DNA from: Calditrichota bacterium
GTDB lineage: Bacteria > Zhuqueibacterota > Zhuqueibacteria > Thermofontimicrobiales > Thermofontimicrobiaceae
Assembly (NCBI GenBank): GCA_013152715.1
Contig: JAADFU010000125.1
Location: 1-64,000, forward strand
Length of the DNA stretch: 64,000 bases
Direction: 5' to 3'
Below, piece by piece: positions 25,444-41,975 of this stretch. The notes under the pieces were generated by a model. The model had not been told where the DNA came from and ran no database searches. It was given only the letters and a program-made list of their open reading frames with translations. Positions within the stretch are counted from its first letter, which is position 1. Every line of letters starts with the position of its first letter. Position numbers and translations under genes: made by a program.

Positions 25444-28400
25444 ATGAAATCATCCGTAAATGATTTGCTTTCCTTGTTTGTAAAATTATCGCAAATGGAG
25501 GATACTGAACGCGTCATTGCCGCGTTTGTTAGCACGATCAATTCTTTTCACTCTGATTTTTCAATCACGTTTTGCCAGGAAGCTGACGGGACAAAAATTG
25601 ATTCGTTCATGCCCATCAAAACCGATCAGTCCTCTTTCGGATTTTTCCGAATTAACGGAGATGCCGCACAGATTTCCCCACAATTTCCCGCTTTGTTGAA
25701 AGACGCAGTACAGCTTCTCGCGAGCATTTTGCAAAAAATTGACGAGGAAAAATTGACAAAAAAGCGAACCAAACAAGTTCGCACCGATAAAATAAAATAC
25801 AATCAATTGATTCAATTAACCCGGGAAGGCATCTGGGTCATCGACGGGGAGGCAAAAACGACATTCGTCAATCCCAGCATGGCTGAAATGCTCGGTTACA
25901 AGCAGGAAGAAATGATTGGCAAACGCCTTTTTGATTTTACGGATGACGAACACGCTGCAATTCTTCGGGAAAAACTGGAGCGGCGCAAAAAAGAAATCAA
26001 AGGCCGACATGATTTTGAATTTCAAAAAAAAGATGGCAGCAAGCTGTTGGTGACATTGGACTACGCGCCAATTTTAGACGAAAAGGGAAACTATCAGGGA
26101 GCGATTGCCAGCGTCATTGACATTACTGAAAGAAAAAATATTGAAAATTCCTTATGGCTATCTGAAATAAGATTTCGGTTGTTTTTTGAAAATCAGGCGA
26201 ATTATTGTTACATGGTTTCGCCGGATGGAAAAATATTAGATGTCAATCAGACAGCTTGTCGGAGACTTGGTTACAGAAAAGAAGAGCTCGTCGGAAAACC
26301 GATTCTCTCGATTTATACTCCGAAAAGTAAACAAAAAGCCAGAGAGCTATTCGAAATATGGAGAAAAACCGGCGTTCTAAAAGATGAAGAGTTACAAATT
26401 CAAACAAAATCCGGAGAAAAAAGGTCTGTCATTCTAAACGTTAATTCGGTCACAGATGCAAATAACAAAATAATTCACTCCATTTCGGTACAGCAAGACA
26501 TTACCGAGCAAACTCAAATTCACCGAAACTTATTGAAATTAACGGTGTTAGCAGACACACTCACTGATTTTCCGCCGGATCAGGATATTTATGATTTCCT
26601 CGGTGAAAACGTACATGACCTCATTCAGTCCGGCATTGTCGTGATCAATCTTTTTGATTCGGAAAGCGTCGCTTTGCGCGTTCACGGTATCTTTGGTCTG
26701 TCGCCGTCGCTTCGCAAAAAAACCGAGCAAATTTTTGGCAAAAAGCTATCGGATTTTAATTTTTCAGATTTTTCACCAAAAGTTCTCGACGGATTTCGAA
26801 CAGGAAAATTAGTCACGCTCAAATGCGGCATGTACGATGCATTGATGAAACAAATTCCTGAAGAAGTGTGCAAAAAGGCAGAAGAGGTGTGCCAGATAAC
26901 AGGCGCCCACGTGGTCGGCATCCGCAAAAAAGATGTCATTTACGGTAACGTGACAATTTTTTCTTTTGCCAATTCTCTTCTGCTTAACGACATCATCGAA
27001 ACTTTCGTCAACCAGGTCGCGAATACCATCAGCCGTATCGAATCTGAAAAAGAGCTGAGAATTAGCCGACAGCGATTAGCATTGGCTCTGGAGAGTGCCG
27101 GAATTGGCCTCTGGGATCAGGATTTTGTGACCGGGAAAGTGTTTCGCAGTAAAGAATGGGCGGAAATGCTGGGTTATTCCCTCAAAGAAATCGAGAGCAG
27201 AATCGAGCCCTGGTACAACTTGATTCATCCTGATGATTTGAAAGAAGTGGAAAAAATCACTGAATTGCATGAATCAGGAAAAATACCGCACATTAAAATC
27301 GAACATCGCATGCGCGCCAAAGACGGTGAATGGCGCTGGATACAAAATTGGGGCAGAATTGTCGAGCGGGACAAAAAAGGGAGACCGCTGCGCGCAGTAG
27401 GAACTCATATTGACATCACAGAACGAAAACTCATCGAACTTGAGCTCCTGCAAAGCAAGACGCGGCTGGAGACTATTTTTGAAAATGCCCCGGTCGGAAT
27501 TTGGTTCATGAATGCCGATAACAGCGGATTTCGAGCGAATAAAAAATTTTATGAAATCACCGGCGAAAAGCCGAGCGGTCAACCAGACAAATATCCTACC
27601 GGCAAAGTTCATCCGGAAGATTACGATGAAATACTTAAAATTTTTTACCAGTCCATTGAGGGCAAAGCCACTTTTCACCGCCAATTTCGCTTGTTGCGTC
27701 CTGACGGAGAAGTGCGTCATGTACTGGGGCAAATTCTCCCGCAACGCACGCCAGAAGGCGAAACGCTGGGATTCATTGCGACCATCACCGACATCACCGA
27801 GCAATTGCAGGCACAAGTTGCTTTGCAAGAACGAGAGGCGACTTTGAGCAGCATTTTCCGCTCTGCGCCAATCGGCATCGGCTTGGTCAGCGACAGAGTT
27901 TTTCTGCAGGTGAATGACCATTTTTGTGAAATGGTAGGCTACGCGCGGGACGAACTGATCGGACAAAACGCGCGCATGATCTATCCCTCGCAAGAAGAAT
28001 TTGAAAGAGCCGGGAAAGAAAAATATGAGCAAATTCAACAGTCGGGGAAAGGTACCATTGAAACTCAGTTTCGAACCAAACAAGGGAAAATACTCGACGT
28101 GTTGATCAGTTCATCGGCGATTGACTTGTCCGATCTGGAAAAAGGCGTTACTTTTACTGTGATGGATATCACGGAAAGCAAGCGTGCGGAACGGGAATTA
28201 AGACAAAGCGAGCAACATTATCGGTCGCTTGTGGAAACTATTCCGGATATTGTGTTGATTTTTGATAAAAATTTCAGAATTCAGTTTGCCAGTCCTTCGC
28301 TGGAAAATCAGACCGGCTATTCGATCAGTGACATTGAAAAACATGACCGCGGATTAGAGTTTGTCTATTCCGATGATGCGCCGATAATAATAGAAAAAAT

Positions 28401-30561
28401 GAAAAATTTCGTCAAAAGCCCGTTAGATATTTCACTTCCGATCGAATTTCGGATTAAGGATAAAAGAGGAAAAATTCATTGGTATTCCTCGGTAGTTGCT
28501 CGCACCGAATTTTACGGCGAGCTTGCCTTTTTGCTGATTGCGCGCGACATTTCTGTCAACAAAGAAATTGAGATGAAACTCCGCGAGAGTGAGCGCCAGT
28601 TTGCCACTTTTATGGACGAGTTACCGGCCGGAGTTTTCATCAAAGATAAAAATAGTGTCATTCTTTATGTGAATAAATATATGACCGATGTATTTGATGC
28701 CAGACATTGGCTCGGAAAAGACTGTTACAAATTATTTCCCAAGCCCGTGAGTAACAAAATGCGTGCAGATGATTTGAAGACTCTGGCACAAGGATTGCTT
28801 CAGACGATTGAAACTCTCCCTGATAAAGAAGGGACACCGCGAATTTTTGAAACAAGAAAATTTGTTATCCAAAGGGAAACGGAAGAGCCCCTGATAGGCG
28901 GCGTTTCTATGGATATTACTGACAGAGTTCAATCTGAAGAGGCGCTGATCGCCAGCGAGCGCAAATATCGCGCCTTGTTCAGTTCGCTCAATGAAGGAGT
29001 TGCTCTGCACGAAATTATTTACGACAAAAGCGGCAAGGCAGTGGACTATCGTATTTTAGATGTCAATCCGGCGTTCGAAAAACTCATCGGAATTCCTAGG
29101 GATCAGGCGAATGGGGAATTAGCTTCAAAACTTTATCAAATGGAGCCGCCGCCGTTTCTCGCTGTCTATGCCCGCGTCTCCGAGACAAGAAAACCGCTTA
29201 TTTTCGAAAACTTTTTTGAAACAATGAGAAAACATTTCATCGTTGCTGTGTTTTCTCCGCAAAAAGGACAGTTTGCCACAGCATTTCTTGATATCACCGA
29301 GGCAAAAGAAGCGGAAAAGGCGCTGCGCGAAAACGAGGAGAGATTTCGTCTCATTGTGCAAAATATTCCGGTCATGGTGGATGCTTTCGATGAAAAGGAG
29401 AAAATCGTTTTTTGGAACAAGGAGTGTGAGCACGTGACAGGATTTTCCGCCAAGGAAATAGTTGGCAATCCCAATGCACTCAATCTGCTTTATCCTGACA
29501 AAAAATATCTCCATTCTTTGCTCAAAGAATGGAAAGAACGAAGAAACCAATTTTCTGGTTGGGAAATGACGCTCACAACTAAAAGTGGCGAAGAACGGGT
29601 CATTTCCTGGCATAATATTTCCGCAGAAGTTCCTATTCCTGGCTGGACTTCGTGGTCGATAGGTATTGATATTACTGAACAAAAACACGCCGAGGCTCAA
29701 GTAAAAAAATATACGGAAAATCTGGAAAAAATGGTCGCCGAGCGCACGCGCGAGTTGGAAGAAAAAACAAATAAATTAGAGGAATCCCAGAAAGCGCTGA
29801 CTTATTTACTGGAAGATGTCAATGAATCCCGTAATCAGTTTGAGAATCTAAATGTACGGTTGCAAGAAGCAAATCAGGATCTGGAGTCTTTTGCCTATTC
29901 TGTCTCTCACGATTTGCGCGCTCCGCTGCGCCATATCGATGGTTTTTCCCGAATGCTGCTGGAGCAATTTAAAGACAATTTGGAACAACCCGCGCAGCAT
30001 TATCTGGAAAACATCTCCGACGCGGCGCAGCAAATGGCACAATTAATAGAAAGTCTGTTGCAGTTCTCGCGCATGGGCCGCGTGAGCATGAATTTGAAAA
30101 AAGTGGCTATGAATGCGGTCATTAACAACGTTCTTGACAATTTGAAATTTGTAACGGAGCAACGAAAAATTAAATGGCAAATTGATCCATTGCCTGAACC
30201 AGAATGTGACGAAATGCTCATTCGTCAGGTCTGGGTAAATCTGATCAGCAATGCACTCAAGTTTACGCGACGCCGTCGCATTGCTAAAATCGAAATCTCC
30301 TGCCAGGAAGAAGCCGATCAATTTGTTTTTTCCATCAGAGATAACGGCGTTGGCTTTAACATGAAATTCGCGGACAAATTATTTGGCGTTTTTCAAAGAC
30401 TCCACAGCAAAAAAGATTTTGAGGGTATCGGAATCGGCCTCGCCAACGTCAAACGAATCGTTCAGCGACACGGCGGAAAAATTTGGGCACAGGCAAAAGT
30501 CAACAAGGGGGCGACATTTTATTTCACATTACCAAAAACAGGGAAAGGAAGCAGCGAATGA
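25444..30561 (+). CDS. Multi-PAS (about nine) and GAF sensor histidine kinase, 1705 residues
   Basis: A very long soluble kinase. After an N-terminal GAF-like piece (1-110), PAS domains lie at about 118-235 and 240-360, a GAF-like domain at 365-540, and seven more PAS domains between 545 and 1405, several with PAC ends such as DITERK. A coiled coil leads to HisKA with phospho-acceptor H1489 in SYSVSHDLRAPLRH and an HATPase domain with an N box near 1598 (NLISNALKF) and G boxes DNGVGF and GIGIGL. No membrane segment. The kinase core resembles phytochrome-type kinases that signal to Rcp1-like receivers, and exactly such a receiver overlaps its stop codon. Confidence 0.93.
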   Translation: MKSSVNDLLSLFVKLSQMEDTERVIAAFVSTINSFHSDFSITFCQEADGTKIDSFMPIKTDQSSFGFFRINGDAAQISPQFPALLKDAVQLLASILQKIDEEKLTKKRTKQVRTDKIKYNQLIQLTREGIWVIDGEAKTTFVNPSMAEMLGYKQEEMIGKRLFDFTDDEHAAILREKLERRKKEIKGRHDFEFQKKDGSKLLVTLDYAPILDEKGNYQGAIASVIDITERKNIENSLWLSEIRFRLFFENQANYCYMVSPDGKILDVNQTACRRLGYRKEELVGKPILSIYTPKSKQKARELFEIWRKTGVLKDEELQIQTKSGEKRSVILNVNSVTDANNKIIHSISVQQDITEQTQIHRNLLKLTVLADTLTDFPPDQDIYDFLGENVHDLIQSGIVVINLFDSESVALRVHGIFGLSPSLRKKTEQIFGKKLSDFNFSDFSPKVLDGFRTGKLVTLKCGMYDALMKQIPEEVCKKAEEVCQITGAHVVGIRKKDVIYGNVTIFSFANSLLLNDIIETFVNQVANTISRIESEKELRISRQRLALALESAGIGLWDQDFVTGKVFRSKEWAEMLGYSLKEIESRIEPWYNLIHPDDLKEVEKITELHESGKIPHIKIEHRMRAKDGEWRWIQNWGRIVERDKKGRPLRAVGTHIDITERKLIELELLQSKTRLETIFENAPVGIWFMNADNSGFRANKKFYEITGEKPSGQPDKYPTGKVHPEDYDEILKIFYQSIEGKATFHRQFRLLRPDGEVRHVLGQILPQRTPEGETLGFIATITDITEQLQAQVALQEREATLSSIFRSAPIGIGLVSDRVFLQVNDHFCEMVGYARDELIGQNARMIYPSQEEFERAGKEKYEQIQQSGKGTIETQFRTKQGKILDVLISSSAIDLSDLEKGVTFTVMDITESKRAERELRQSEQHYRSLVETIPDIVLIFDKNFRIQFASPSLENQTGYSISDIEKHDRGLEFVYSDDAPIIIEKMKNFVKSPLDISLPIEFRIKDKRGKIHWYSSVVARTEFYGELAFLLIARDISVNKEIEMKLRESERQFATFMDELPAGVFIKDKNSVILYVNKYMTDVFDARHWLGKDCYKLFPKPVSNKMRADDLKTLAQGLLQTIETLPDKEGTPRIFETRKFVIQRETEEPLIGGVSMDITDRVQSEEALIASERKYRALFSSLNEGVALHEIIYDKSGKAVDYRILDVNPAFEKLIGIPRDQANGELASKLYQMEPPPFLAVYARVSETRKPLIFENFFETMRKHFIVAVFSPQKGQFATAFLDITEAKEAEKALRENEERFRLIVQNIPVMVDAFDEKEKIVFWNKECEHVTGFSAKEIVGNPNALNLLYPDKKYLHSLLKEWKERRNQFSGWEMTLTTKSGEERVISWHNISAEVPIPGWTSWSIGIDITEQKHAEAQVKKYTENLEKMVAERTRELEEKTNKLEESQKALTYLLEDVNESRNQFENLNVRLQEANQDLESFAYSVSHDLRAPLRHIDGFSRMLLEQFKDNLEQPAQHYLENISDAAQQMAQLIESLLQFSRMGRVSMNLKKVAMNAVINNVLDNLKFVTEQRKIKWQIDPLPEPECDEMLIRQVWVNLISNALKFTRRRRIAKIEISCQEEADQFVFSIRDNGVGFNMKFADKLFGVFQRLHSKKDFEGIGIGLANVKRIVQRHGGKIWAQAKVNKGATFYFTLPKTGKGSSE

Positions 30562-34522: not shown

Positions 34523-34975
34523 CTATTAAATACCAATGACCAGTTAAATTTTACGATCAACTATTTTTGTTGAAATTAGGTTGTAGGGGACGCATATATG
34601 CATCCCCTACATTATTTTTAAACGTAATATTTACAAGAATATTTTTTAACTGGTCATTCATATTATTAAATAACTCACTAAAAGGACCAATTTTATCAAT
34701 CCAAAAATTGAACTAATTCATTCAAAAGTTTTAAAGCTTTAAAAGGATCACGTTAAAAATACGAACAAGTTCTGTGTATTTTTGCAACACCTGTGACTTT
34801 TGCCCCTGTGTCAATTTACAACAATGCTTTTTTGCCTCACGTTAACCTCTTGTTTTTTAATGTCAATTACCACCAACTTTTTAGGCACATGATTTGCCTC
34901 AATGAAACTGAACATTACCAGGCAATGCCGAATTTCAAATGACAATGCCCAATGACAATAAATCAGGAGAAAATC
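34523..34975. other. 453-bp intergenic region with a MITE-like element
   Basis: The element is at 34535-34658. The rest (34673-34975) is AT-rich with AATGACAAT-type low-complexity DNA just before the next start (34930-34960). No clear promoter or ORF. Confidence 0.45.
34535..34658. mobile_element. MITE-like element with 14-bp terminal inverted repeats
   Basis: Perfect terminal repeats AATGACCAGTTAAA (34535-34548) and TTTAACTGGTCATT (34645-34658). A central near-perfect palindrome, TGTAGGGGACGCATA with its complement, lies at 34582-34611 (14 of 15 pairs). The direct repeat TATTAAATA flanks it at 34524-34532 and 34664-34672, a possible target duplication with small gaps. No ORF inside. Confidence 0.55.
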
Positions 34976-37198
34976 ATGCAATCGTCACAGACCAAACAGA
35001 TCATTTTTTTGATTCTGCTTTTTTTCGCTTTTGTTTTGATTTTTGCGTTGCTCATTTATTCCTCAATCGCACAAGCGATGGCGATGGAGACTTTTTCTCA
35101 CGGCAAAAAGAAACTGATTCATTACCAAAAAGACGAAATGGAAATTCAGCAAGACGAAGTCATCGAGGCGGACATTGTCGCTGAATCCAGCAACCTAATC
35201 ATCGACGGCGCTCTGTATGGGGACATTGTCGCCATTCGCAGCGTGGTAAATTTGCAGCCCGGAGCAAAGATTTACGGTCACGTAATCTCTTTTGAGAGCG
35301 AAGTTGCCGCAGACAGCGGCGCTCAAATCGCCGGCGATCTTGTGCAGATCAAAAACGACAGCGCCAAAGTAATTGGCGGACGCACGCTTGTGGGTTACGG
35401 TTTCCCGCTAAATATTTTCATTTCAGACACGACCATCGCCGACACGGTGAACGTCAAAGGGGATATTTTGATCCTGAACCATGATCTGGAAATTGCCGGA
35501 CGAACCGAGGGCGACGTGTACCAGTTTTCTGGCACGACAAAAATTGACTCCAGCGGCGCGGTGGACGGCCATGTCGTCAATTATCTGGGACGAATTGATC
35601 TGGCAGACGAAGCGCTGGTGACCGGTAATGTTTTACAATTGAGCGAAGAGACGAAAATTGCGCAAGAGAATGAGACAAAAAATGACGATGAATTGCGGGA
35701 TAAAATTGAGAAACGCTATCTGGAGCGCGATGAAAAAAGCGACGTTTTTCGTTTCTGGGGCGACGTCTCCATTGAGCCCAATGAAATCATCCGCGGCGAC
35801 GTGGTCACAATCCGCGGCACAATCAATGTGCAAGGCGAAGTCGACGGCGACGTTGTTTCAGTGTTGGGAAGCGTGGATTTGGATTCTACAGCCTTGGTTT
35901 CCGGCGATGTCGTGAGCGTTGGCGGCAAAATTCATCGCCACAAAAATGCTCGCGTGGGCGGCGACATTGTGCAGACCAATATCACCGGCGTCAAAGTTGA
36001 CGACGGCGGTCAACATGTCAACGTCGGTGTCGGCGGCATTTCCGTCGGTCCCAAGCGCGGCTATGAGTGGGAGAAAAAATCGTGCAGGAAAAAACATCGC
36101 TATCGCTCTGAATTTGGAGATGAATCGTTCCTGTTTCGCTACAATCGCGTGGAGGGACTATTCTTGGGACTGAGAAAAGTGAAGAATCGCTACGAAGACA
36201 ACCGGGCGCTGTTCGACTTGTACGGAGACATTGGCTACGGTTTTGCCGGAAAACGCGCTTGCTACCAGCTCGGTCTGGAAAGGCGATTTTTAGGCAAATA
36301 CGGTCCCATCATTGGCGTGGAAACTCACGATTTCACCAAAACCGAAGACGAGTGGATCATGCCCACGTTTGAAAATTCGCTGGCGGCGATTTTGATTCGC
36401 GAAGATTTTCAGGATTTTTACCGCGAAGAGGGTTATTCTGTGTACGCGGATGTTGAAATTTCGGAAATTGCCACGCTGCACGCCGGCTATCATCACCAGA
36501 ATCACATCGGGCTGGGAAAAAAGACCAACTGGTCGATTTTTGGCGGCGACAAGAAATTTCGACCCAATCCCGCCATCGACGAATTAGAATACAACAGCGT
36601 CCGGGCGAGTCTGAAAATCGACACCCGCGACAGCTACAAATATCCGAACAAAGGGTGGTTTGTCTCTCTTTTCGCTGAATTCGCCGGCCCGGATTTCAAT
36701 GACGTGACTTCCGGCGTGGATTTCGACCGCTACATTGTGGATATCCGCCGCTACCAGCCGGTGACTTACGGCGAAAATTTGGATTTCCGCATTCGCGCCG
36801 GATCATCGCGCGGCGTTTTGCCGCGGCAATATTTGTTCGACGCTGGTGGTTTCTCTGCGCTGCGCGGCTATGAATTTAAAGAATTCGAAAATTGCAATCG
36901 CATGGTCGTCGCCAGTCTGGAATACCGACTTTACAACGACCACAATCCGATGAACGATGTGTTTGGGTTTACAGATTTCAATCTGATCCTTTTCGCGGAT
37001 GCCGGATATTTGTGGAACGTGAGCGATTCGCTCGATTACCATCAGGGCTACGACGATCTCGGCTGGGACGATCTGTACACATCGCTGGGTTTCGCCATCA
37101 GCAATGAGGAAGGAAACGTGCGACTAAATTTTGCCAAACGCATGGACGAAAAAGGCAAGCCGATGGTGGTGACTTTTCGTATTAATCGGCCTTTTTAA
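34976..37198 (+). CDS. Bactofilin-like beta-helix fused to Omp85-type outer-membrane barrel
   Basis: 740 residues from ATG 34976, chosen because AGGAGA lies five bases upstream; an earlier in-frame ATG (34952) lacks this. A signal peptide ends near AQAMA (residue 30). Residues 40-330 are rungs of polymer-forming (bactofilin-like) type: GDIVAIRS, GHVISFES, GDLVQIKN, GDVVTIRG, GDVVSVLGS, GDVVSVGGK. A long C-terminal beta-barrel (about 370-740) has NSVRASLKIDTRD, the LRGY motif (629-632) of Omp85 loop 6 and a terminal phenylalanine (INRPF), the barrel-assembly signal. No POTRA domains. The beta-helix should lie in the periplasm; function unknown. Confidence 0.82.
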   Translation: MQSSQTKQIIFLILLFFAFVLIFALLIYSSIAQAMAMETFSHGKKKLIHYQKDEMEIQQDEVIEADIVAESSNLIIDGALYGDIVAIRSVVNLQPGAKIYGHVISFESEVAADSGAQIAGDLVQIKNDSAKVIGGRTLVGYGFPLNIFISDTTIADTVNVKGDILILNHDLEIAGRTEGDVYQFSGTTKIDSSGAVDGHVVNYLGRIDLADEALVTGNVLQLSEETKIAQENETKNDDELRDKIEKRYLERDEKSDVFRFWGDVSIEPNEIIRGDVVTIRGTINVQGEVDGDVVSVLGSVDLDSTALVSGDVVSVGGKIHRHKNARVGGDIVQTNITGVKVDDGGQHVNVGVGGISVGPKRGYEWEKKSCRKKHRYRSEFGDESFLFRYNRVEGLFLGLRKVKNRYEDNRALFDLYGDIGYGFAGKRACYQLGLERRFLGKYGPIIGVETHDFTKTEDEWIMPTFENSLAAILIREDFQDFYREEGYSVYADVEISEIATLHAGYHHQNHIGLGKKTNWSIFGGDKKFRPNPAIDELEYNSVRASLKIDTRDSYKYPNKGWFVSLFAEFAGPDFNDVTSGVDFDRYIVDIRRYQPVTYGENLDFRIRAGSSRGVLPRQYLFDAGGFSALRGYEFKEFENCNRMVVASLEYRLYNDHNPMNDVFGFTDFNLILFADAGYLWNVSDSLDYHQGYDDLGWDDLYTSLGFAISNEEGNVRLNFAKRMDEKGKPMVVTFRINRPF

Positions 37199-40127: not shown

Positions 40128-40973
40128 ATGCGCACAAAAATTATCTGCCTGATTGCGGTGTTGTTTTTTTCAACGCTACAGCTTTCAGCGCAGGACTTTC
40201 AATCCATTGAACGAAAAGTTGATGTCCCCAAAAATAAAACACTCAAACTGGTAATTCAAATCGACGCCGGAAAGGTTTTTGTCGAAAAACACAATCATTC
40301 GGCGCAGATAAGAATTGCCGGACGGATCAACAAAAAATTTGACGACCTGGAAATCGATTTTAATAAGAAAGACAATGAATTATCTGTTGCTCTCGATCAT
40401 GACAAGTGGCTGAAATCGACTAAAGATGAACAGTCTTCCACAGTTAAAATTTACCTGCCGGATGATATCGCTATTGAATTTTCCAGCGAAATGAAAGCCG
40501 GCAAAATCGACCTTGACGTCGGCGGATTGTCTCTGAAAAATTTCGAATTGCAAACCACCGCCGGCGAAGTCAACGTCGATTTCGCTGAGGCAAATCGTAT
40601 CGCCATGGAATTCCTCGACATTGACGTAAAAATCGGCTCCGCGAAATTGCAGCATCTGGGAAACGCGCGCTTTGAAGACGGTCGAATCAACGGCGGCATT
40701 GGCGAGTTGCAAATTGATTTTCGCGGTCAAGGAGGCAAATCCGCTCATGCGGACATCGACCTGGACATGGGCACCACCAAAGTCATTTTACCTCGCGACG
40801 TCGGGATCAAATTGCGCAGCACTACTTTTGGTTTTTTGACCAATCAAAACATCAGCCATGAGTTTGAAAAGCGCGGGCGCTATTATTTCAGTCAAAATTA
40901 CGACGAGCAAACTCGGACGCTTTCGCTGGCAATTCACAGCGGCGTCGGCGAATTGAATGTTCTTTTTCGATAA
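40128..40973 (+). CDS. Secreted DUF4097-like beta-helix protein
   Basis: 281 residues with a signal peptide (MRTKIICLIAVLFFSTLQLS, cut after SAQ). The rest is almost all short beta-strand repeats (KAGKIDLDVGGLSLKNFEL, TTAGEVNVDF, IDVKIGSAKL, GIGELQIDF), as in the toast-rack/DUF4097 putative adhesin family. It should be periplasmic or surface-exposed. The start is secure: AAGGAGG lies six bases upstream of the ATG. It is paired with the next gene, which has the same fold and a more regular repeat. Function of the family is unknown. Confidence 0.8.
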   Translation: MRTKIICLIAVLFFSTLQLSAQDFQSIERKVDVPKNKTLKLVIQIDAGKVFVEKHNHSAQIRIAGRINKKFDDLEIDFNKKDNELSVALDHDKWLKSTKDEQSSTVKIYLPDDIAIEFSSEMKAGKIDLDVGGLSLKNFELQTTAGEVNVDFAEANRIAMEFLDIDVKIGSAKLQHLGNARFEDGRINGGIGELQIDFRGQGGKSAHADIDLDMGTTKVILPRDVGIKLRSTTFGFLTNQNISHEFEKRGRYYFSQNYDEQTRTLSLAIHSGVGELNVLFR

Positions 40974-40991: not shown

Positions 40992-41975
40992 ATGAAGAAA
41001 ATTATCATTCTGATCGCTGTTTCACTGCTGTCGACAGCAGTATTTGCCAGGGAAAAAGCGACACAAACCGAGCAAAAAACTTTTGCCATCGAGGCGGGTG
41101 CTGCCATTTCCATTTCCAACGAGGACGGGAATATCGAAGTCGATAGCTGGGACAAATCGGATATTCAAATTTCCTGGACAAAAATTGCCTACGGCAAAAG
41201 CAAGGAGATGGCTGAGAAAATACTCAAAGATACTGAGATCGACATTTTTCATTCGCTGCACACGCTGCGCGTAAAAGTCATCGAGCCCAGGCAGGAAAGG
41301 AATTTCAGCTTTTGGGATCTTTTCGACCCCGATACCTGGGCCAATTTCCCTCACTCGCCAGTGGTACATTTTCGTTTAATTGTTCCGCGGGATGTGAAAT
41401 TAAACCTGACGACCGACGAAGGAAAAATCGCGGTGAAAAATTGCAGCGGCTCGCTAACCGCTCAAGTGGACGAGGGCGATATTGACTGCGAAAATATTTC
41501 CGCCGAAAACATAAAACTGGTTAGCGACGAAGGCCACGTCACCTGTTCCGGTCTGAAAGCGACCGACGGAAAAATCACAATACGCACCGACGAGGGCGAT
41601 ATTCGCCTTGAGAATTCCTTTTCCGATCGGGCGTCCATTAAATGCGACGAAGGCAAAATTTACTGCGCTGAATTTTACGCCCGCCGCGCCACGATGACAA
41701 CGGACGAGGGAAATATCGAAATCTCGCTCGCTGAAAGAAAATTTGATTCCTACCGCCTGTACACAGACGAAGGAAATGTTACCATCTACTTTCCCGACGC
41801 TATTGGCTGTGAATTTGATATGAAAACGGAGGAAGGAAGAATCCGAAACGACTTCGGTTTAAAAATTTCCAAAATCGAAGACGGCCAACGGTGCCGACAA
41901 AGCATCGGCTCCCGACCAACGGCGCAAATGATTGTCAGCGTGTCGGAAGGGAATATTTATTTGCGGAAAAAGTGA
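40992..41975 (+). CDS. Secreted DUF4097-like protein with regular DEG repeats
   Basis: 327 residues. Signal peptide to about residue 19 (MKKIIILIAVSLLSTAVFA). From residue 36 it carries around ten beta rungs built on a DEG[KDNH][IV] core: EDGNIEV, DEGKIAV, DEGDIDC, DEGHVTC, DEGDIRL, DEGKIYC, DEGNIEI, DEGNVTI, EEGRIRN and SEGNIYL, mostly 18-20 residues apart. This predicts a parallel beta-helix with a ladder of Asp-Glu-Gly turns, a possible cation- or glycan-binding face. The ATG follows GGGAGAAAAGCC. It is the third gene of the epimerase operon. Function unknown. Confidence 0.8.
   Translation: MKKIIILIAVSLLSTAVFAREKATQTEQKTFAIEAGAAISISNEDGNIEVDSWDKSDIQISWTKIAYGKSKEMAEKILKDTEIDIFHSLHTLRVKVIEPRQERNFSFWDLFDPDTWANFPHSPVVHFRLIVPRDVKLNLTTDEGKIAVKNCSGSLTAQVDEGDIDCENISAENIKLVSDEGHVTCSGLKATDGKITIRTDEGDIRLENSFSDRASIKCDEGKIYCAEFYARRATMTTDEGNIEISLAERKFDSYRLYTDEGNVTIYFPDAIGCEFDMKTEEGRIRNDFGLKISKIEDGQRCRQSIGSRPTAQMIVSVSEGNIYLRKK

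Follow-up and report, generated by a model that had tools for sequence, protein, structure and literature searches.

A bactofilin-type β-solenoid fused to a POTRA-less Omp85 barrel in the phylum KSB1: a candidate periplasmic docking rod

The bactofilin fold is best known from the inner cytoskeleton. In the classical autotransporter layout, an N-terminal right-handed β-helix is followed by a C-terminal barrel. Omp85 proteins that lack POTRA domains and carry other N-terminal domains constitute a documented group: the part of the 2014 survey considered here distinguishes ten subfamilies and mentions WD40, patatin, metallo, lipoprotein, noNterm, and POTRA types, with bactofilin not among the N-terminal types named in its subfamily section (PMC4104836). 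By the account in PMC11116518, at least one POTRA is present in the Omp85 proteins that have been studied. In the Omp85 protein PlpD, the N-terminal domain stays in the periplasm, and PlpD illustrates how this scaffold lends itself to reuse in other roles (PMC11116518). One study of toastrack proteins treats them as right-handed β-helices that build signalling complexes and predicts an intracellular location for them (PMC11237479). Described here is a protein in which a bactofilin-type solenoid and an Omp85-type barrel are joined in one reading frame. It is encoded in the window, which is the entire stretch of 64,000 nucleotides that was analyzed.

The frame, as read from the DNA, is open from 34952 to 37198 over 748 codons and lies on the forward strand, as do the gene parts and the two linked toastrack genes given below. 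The start at 34976 chosen in the first-pass annotation was upheld over the ATG at 34952, because a Shine-Dalgarno-like AGGAGA is positioned just 5' of 34976 and because several orthologues also start at the corresponding position (MQSxQ). From there the gene extends over 34976-37198, with its stop at 37198, and encodes 740 amino acids. Residue numbers employed throughout refer to the 748-residue frame. On the basis of the sequence and the orthologues, the hydrophobic segment with an AxA-type end at the N-terminus (34976-35083) is read as a signal peptide, and an AxA or AxG following a hydrophobic N-terminal stretch recurs among the orthologues. To judge from its length of about 20 residues, the stretch could also be an uncleaved anchor. 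A tether between the inner and outer membranes by way of such an anchor is disfavored, however: in barrel-only orthologues whose hydrophobic N-terminus is of comparable length, no more than about 40 residues precede the barrel.

The GD-type rungs noted in the first-pass annotation are borne out by profile searches. PF04519 (Bactofilin) matches residues 46-248, searched alone, with an E-value of 1.2e-10 and a score of 42 bits against a cut-off of 27.9. The same profile gives no match at E ≤ 1 to the full-length window protein, which is probably a filter effect of HMMER, because residues 46-248 and the family members do match. Indeed, 23 of the 27 family members (the window protein and 26 orthologues) are matched at E ≤ 1, the best at 6e-14, and several of them exceed the cut-off in two or three stretches each. 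Together these matches indicate that the rungs are more than a chance resemblance. The proposed β-helix stands as a bactofilin-type solenoid, but instead of forming a single long helix it is divided into three homologous modules of ~80 amino acids. M1 (residues 56-141, 35117-35374) and M2 (residues 153-232, 35408-35647) were delineated by PF04519, hhalign, and the strands predicted by AlphaFold2, and M3 (residues 263-345, 35738-35986), which is common to the class-level orthologues, by hhalign. The three are mutually homologous with hhalign probabilities of at least 99%, E-values of 5e-19 to 1e-21, and almost gap-free alignments. The GD-like motifs fall at positions 73/90/109/128, 170/187/206/225, and 282/299/318/337, such that the rung spacing of 17-19-19 residues is the same in all three modules.

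The structure prediction called for in the first-pass annotation yielded, for the N-terminal half, a β-solenoid. In the AlphaFold2 model, computed with three sequences, short strands run throughout, and the pLDDT is mostly 70-90 for M1-M2 and about 70-80 over much of M3. The M1-M2 stretch is followed by a linker (35648-35737), most of which is predicted, at low confidence, as a 24-residue α-helix, and then by M3. This model supports the assignment of the N-terminal region as a β-solenoid. A Foldseek comparison of the solenoid with the PDB returned mainly beta-helical proteins, including autotransporter passengers such as Ag43; the matches are weak, with a best E-value of 8e-4 and TM-scores below 0.45. 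The highest probability shown, 0.60, belongs to the bactofilin BacA (2n3d), again with weak E-values and TM-scores.

The C-terminal region (residues 391-748, 36122-37195) is a barrel domain of the Omp85 superfamily, as had been proposed. PF01103 (Omp85) matches residues 547-729 with an E-value of 1.2e-14 (55 bits, cut-off 24) as well as all 27 family members. PF04519 with residues 46-248 and PF01103 with the barrel both score above their cut-offs. In the Pfam scan, DUF5686 (PF18939) covers residues 389-549 of the window protein, and it matches the first half of the barrel in 26 of the 27 members; only profile positions of about 290-575 out of 669 are involved, and the N-terminal part of the profile is not matched. 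The barrel families matched in the 27 members at E ≤ 1 are Omp85, Omp85_2, ShlB, and DUF5686 only, and no autotransporter-type barrel profile was found among them at that threshold. An end-to-end but weak alignment relates the barrel profile to that of the BamA barrel encoded in the same genome (47% probability, E-value of 3e-5). A profile of the orthologues hits Omp85 proteins of known structure, with 9ccg at an E-value of 1.1e-11 and TamA and BamA more weakly. In the full-length AlphaFold2 model, likewise computed with three sequences, the region of the putative 16-strand barrel has a pLDDT of about 20, and no barrel fold was built. The counting of amphipathic strands was discarded as a barrel test when the POTRA region of BamA scored as high as barrels.

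The translated frame contains the IDTRD motif at residues 556-560 (36617-36631), the LRGY motif at residues 637-640 (36860-36871; 629-632 in the numbering of the first-pass annotation), which is the L6 signature, and the C-terminal phenylalanine, all as previously noted. The DxR is present in all 50 aligned orthologues. The L6 arginine is kept in 43 of the 50 and is a proline or a glutamine in the other seven, which argues against an obligatory BamA-like chemistry.

The absence of POTRA domains likewise held, in that none was matched at E ≤ 1 in any of the 27 family members; the genome does encode a different Omp85 protein in which PF07244 (POTRA) was detected. The broader statement that Omp85 proteins normally carry POTRA domains at this place is true of BamA, TamA, and FhaC, but must be tempered by the POTRA-less group described in the part of the survey considered here (PMC4104836). 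Given that documented group, the fusion adds a new type of N-terminus to the superfamily without breaking with it. As far as that part of the survey describes them, the noNterm and other non-POTRA Omp85/TpsB subfamilies are alike in their DxR and LRG barrel and in the lack of POTRA domains (PMC4104836). They differ in that the fusion has a bactofilin solenoid and in that some of its orthologues lack the L6 arginine. The PlpD-type patatin-Omp85 proteins also consist of an N-terminal domain and an Omp85 barrel, but the domain in PlpD is globular, periplasmic, and patatin-like, of the lipase type, whereas that of the window protein is a solenoid (PMC11116518). With bactofilins (PF04519) such as BacA the fusion shares module sequence and rung pattern, yet it has in addition an N-terminal signal-like segment and a C-terminal barrel. 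Judged from the sequence, these two additions speak against the cytoplasmic, membrane-associated location typical of bactofilins.

The genome encodes a separate canonical BamA. Within the genus the fusion protein shows 81% identity versus 92% for BamA, and its gene thus diverges faster. The ordinary bactofilin of the genome is a separate protein of 164 amino acids encoded beside ParB-like and peptidase-like genes. With nine Omp85 matches, the genome has a rich repertoire of such proteins. A barrel-only paralogue, with 32% identity and the L6 arginine replaced by valine, adjoins the gene for a one-POTRA Omp85 protein (contig C1, 11132-12187 and 12745-13602), and similar pairs of matches occur in many relatives. 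As read from their sequences, three more Omp85 proteins are preceded by TolB/WD40-like propeller repeats, with one of the genes located at 65508-66221 of the window's contig, just beyond the end of the window, and two others are patatin-like.

The distribution of the fusion was determined in 82 genomes of the uncultured phylum KSB1, on which the genome search was centered. Some match to the window protein, barrel paralogues included, exists in 76 of the 82, and the orthologous barrel gene is listed in 66. A solenoid and a barrel encoded in one frame were counted by hand in 43, so that the fusion, which the first-pass annotation had proposed to seek in related genomes, is a genuine single-gene architecture. 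In other classes the orthologues contain 408-508 amino acids and are barrel only. Members of the window protein's class have about 530-570 amino acids and one bactofilin module of ~80 residues, and members of its order have about 745-800 amino acids and three modules. In a tree calculated from the barrel only, the three-module order forms one clade (SH-aLRT of 97), and the other, barrel-only classes lie on one side (75). One family, f5, has no recognizable module and branches from within a set of relatives with one module. Probably the rod was added to a barrel that already existed. In the simplest history, one module would have been gained, multiplied in the window protein's order, and lost once in one family; since the root of the tree is uncertain, we infer the direction of these changes. 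Several near-complete genomes of the class are without the gene, and its function is therefore dispensable there. No relatives were found in viral contigs or plasmids.

Outside of barrel proteins, the module is matched best by a protein from three sister-class genomes consisting of a signal peptide, the module, and several transmembrane helices. In the two of the three that were scanned, the transmembrane part matched no Pfam family. This inner-membrane-type protein is a plausible relative of the module's donor, and its signal peptide and multiple transmembrane helices suggest an extracytoplasmic use of the module in this other setting as well. Proteins with "TVNGSI" solenoid repeats, secreted or lipoprotein-like, are weakly related to M3.

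The best functional clue, absent from the first-pass annotation, is a conserved linkage to secreted toastrack proteins. Around many of the orthologues the gene order is ileS, dksA-like, lspA, rluD, the fusion gene, a LiaF/DUF4097 toastrack gene, and a DUF4097 gene, with ileS, dksA, lspA, and rluD named from sequence rather than by family search. In the window, the toastrack gene is located at 40128-40973 (LiaF-like_C, PF09922, 6.5e-13; DUF4097, PF13349, 3.3e-6) and is separated from the fusion gene by fucosidase and epimerase genes. A second DUF4097 toastrack gene follows at 40992-41975 (PF13349, 7.4e-18), and that family was found at 21 of 41 loci. Of the 58 genomes with both genes, 45 have the toastrack gene on the same strand and no more than 3 kb downstream, and in 35 it is directly adjacent. 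The linkage persists in genomes without the solenoid and is therefore a property of the barrel. The N-termini of both window toastrack proteins resemble signal peptides, and the proteins would accordingly lie outside of the cytoplasm. The arrangement is reminiscent of two-partner secretion by FhaC/FhaB, in which the gene for an Omp85-family barrel also lies beside that for a secreted β-helix protein. Here, however, the barrel lacks POTRA domains, and the toastracks are short (about 280-330 amino acids) and match LiaF/DUF4097; no TPS domain was observed in the Pfam scan of the window toastrack proteins. Upstream, at 25444-30561, lies a gene for a sensor kinase-like protein of 1705 amino acids with many PAS-like repeats.

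We tentatively prefer, while stopping short of holding it probable, a reading in which the fusion protein is a periplasmic docking rod anchored in the outer membrane and working with the toastrack protein. A POTRA-less Omp85 barrel would have acquired an extracytoplasmic bactofilin module between its signal peptide and the barrel, and that module would later have been multiplied to three in the window protein's order. The protein would be secreted by Sec, and the barrel would reside in the outer membrane with the N-terminus in the periplasm, where PlpD keeps its N-terminal domain (PMC11116518), such that the solenoid may project towards the peptidoglycan as a stiff rod. The β-sheet faces or open ends of the rod might then serve to bind other proteins, above all the secreted toastrack β-helix protein encoded downstream, which gene order alone suggests as its binding partner, and the two may act in the upkeep or organization of the outer envelope. 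Because barrel and toastrack co-occur without the rod in the sister classes, the rod is best regarded as accessory, and it would have been added to a barrel-toastrack pair that is older.

Four other explanations were considered. The protein might be an insertase or translocon like BamA, TamA, or FhaC, with the solenoid replacing the POTRA domains and catching client strands by β-augmentation, and the toastracks may be its clients, as in two-partner secretion. The Omp85 barrel with its DxR and, mostly, its L6 LRG motif, the beta-helical secreted proteins encoded nearby, and the general Omp85 role in assembly or translocation given in the part of the survey considered here (PMC4104836) are in keeping with this idea. 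We nonetheless regard it as unlikely, although worthy of serious attention, in that the sister classes keep barrel and toastrack without any N-terminal domain and the gene diverges faster than that for BamA. Furthermore, the loss of the L6 arginine in seven of 50 orthologues, together with the separate canonical BamA, makes an obligatory insertase role less likely. Secretion in the manner of an autotransporter or a type Vd system, whereby a β-helix passenger would reach the cell surface through, or together with, the barrel, is a distinctly weaker candidate. The order of β-helix and barrel fits the classical layout and the PDB matches of the solenoid include passengers such as Ag43, but the barrel is of the Omp85 type, and a sister copy of the bactofilin module is carried by a protein of the inner-membrane type. 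PlpD, an Omp85 protein once thought to be of this kind, keeps its domain in the periplasm (PMC11116518).

A periplasmic cytoskeleton, in which solenoid ends would polymerize between molecules, as in the nucleotide-free polymers of bactofilins, or join the toastrack β-helices and thereby link barrels into filaments bound to the outer membrane, is more doubtful still. The presence of up to three tandem modules could be taken in its favor; the class-level orthologues, however, carry one short module, and the existing junction of M1 with M2 would leave their inner ends occupied. Finally, a sequencing or assembly error joining two genes, raised in the first-pass annotation as the possible undoing of the architecture, is ruled out by a fusion conserved in 43 of 82 genomes. 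With that same in-frame fusion and with significant profile matches for both halves, the chance that the protein reflects such an error or a low-complexity resemblance is negligible.

A literature search, incomplete in its coverage, returned no publication joining a bactofilin or polymer-forming cytoskeletal fold to an Omp85 or outer-membrane fusion. Within that coverage and the genomes searched, which are those of the phylum, the fusion is probably undescribed so far. It provides a new kind of N-terminal domain for the Omp85 superfamily and brings a fold of the cytoskeleton into the cell envelope. The series of barrel only, barrel with one module, barrel with three modules, and one loss constitutes a natural experiment on a POTRA-less Omp85 barrel, and the phylum-wide linkage to toastrack proteins supplies a concrete candidate partner. 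If such a periplasmic skeleton did exist, a cytoskeletal fold would have been transferred across the envelope to a position beneath the outer membrane.
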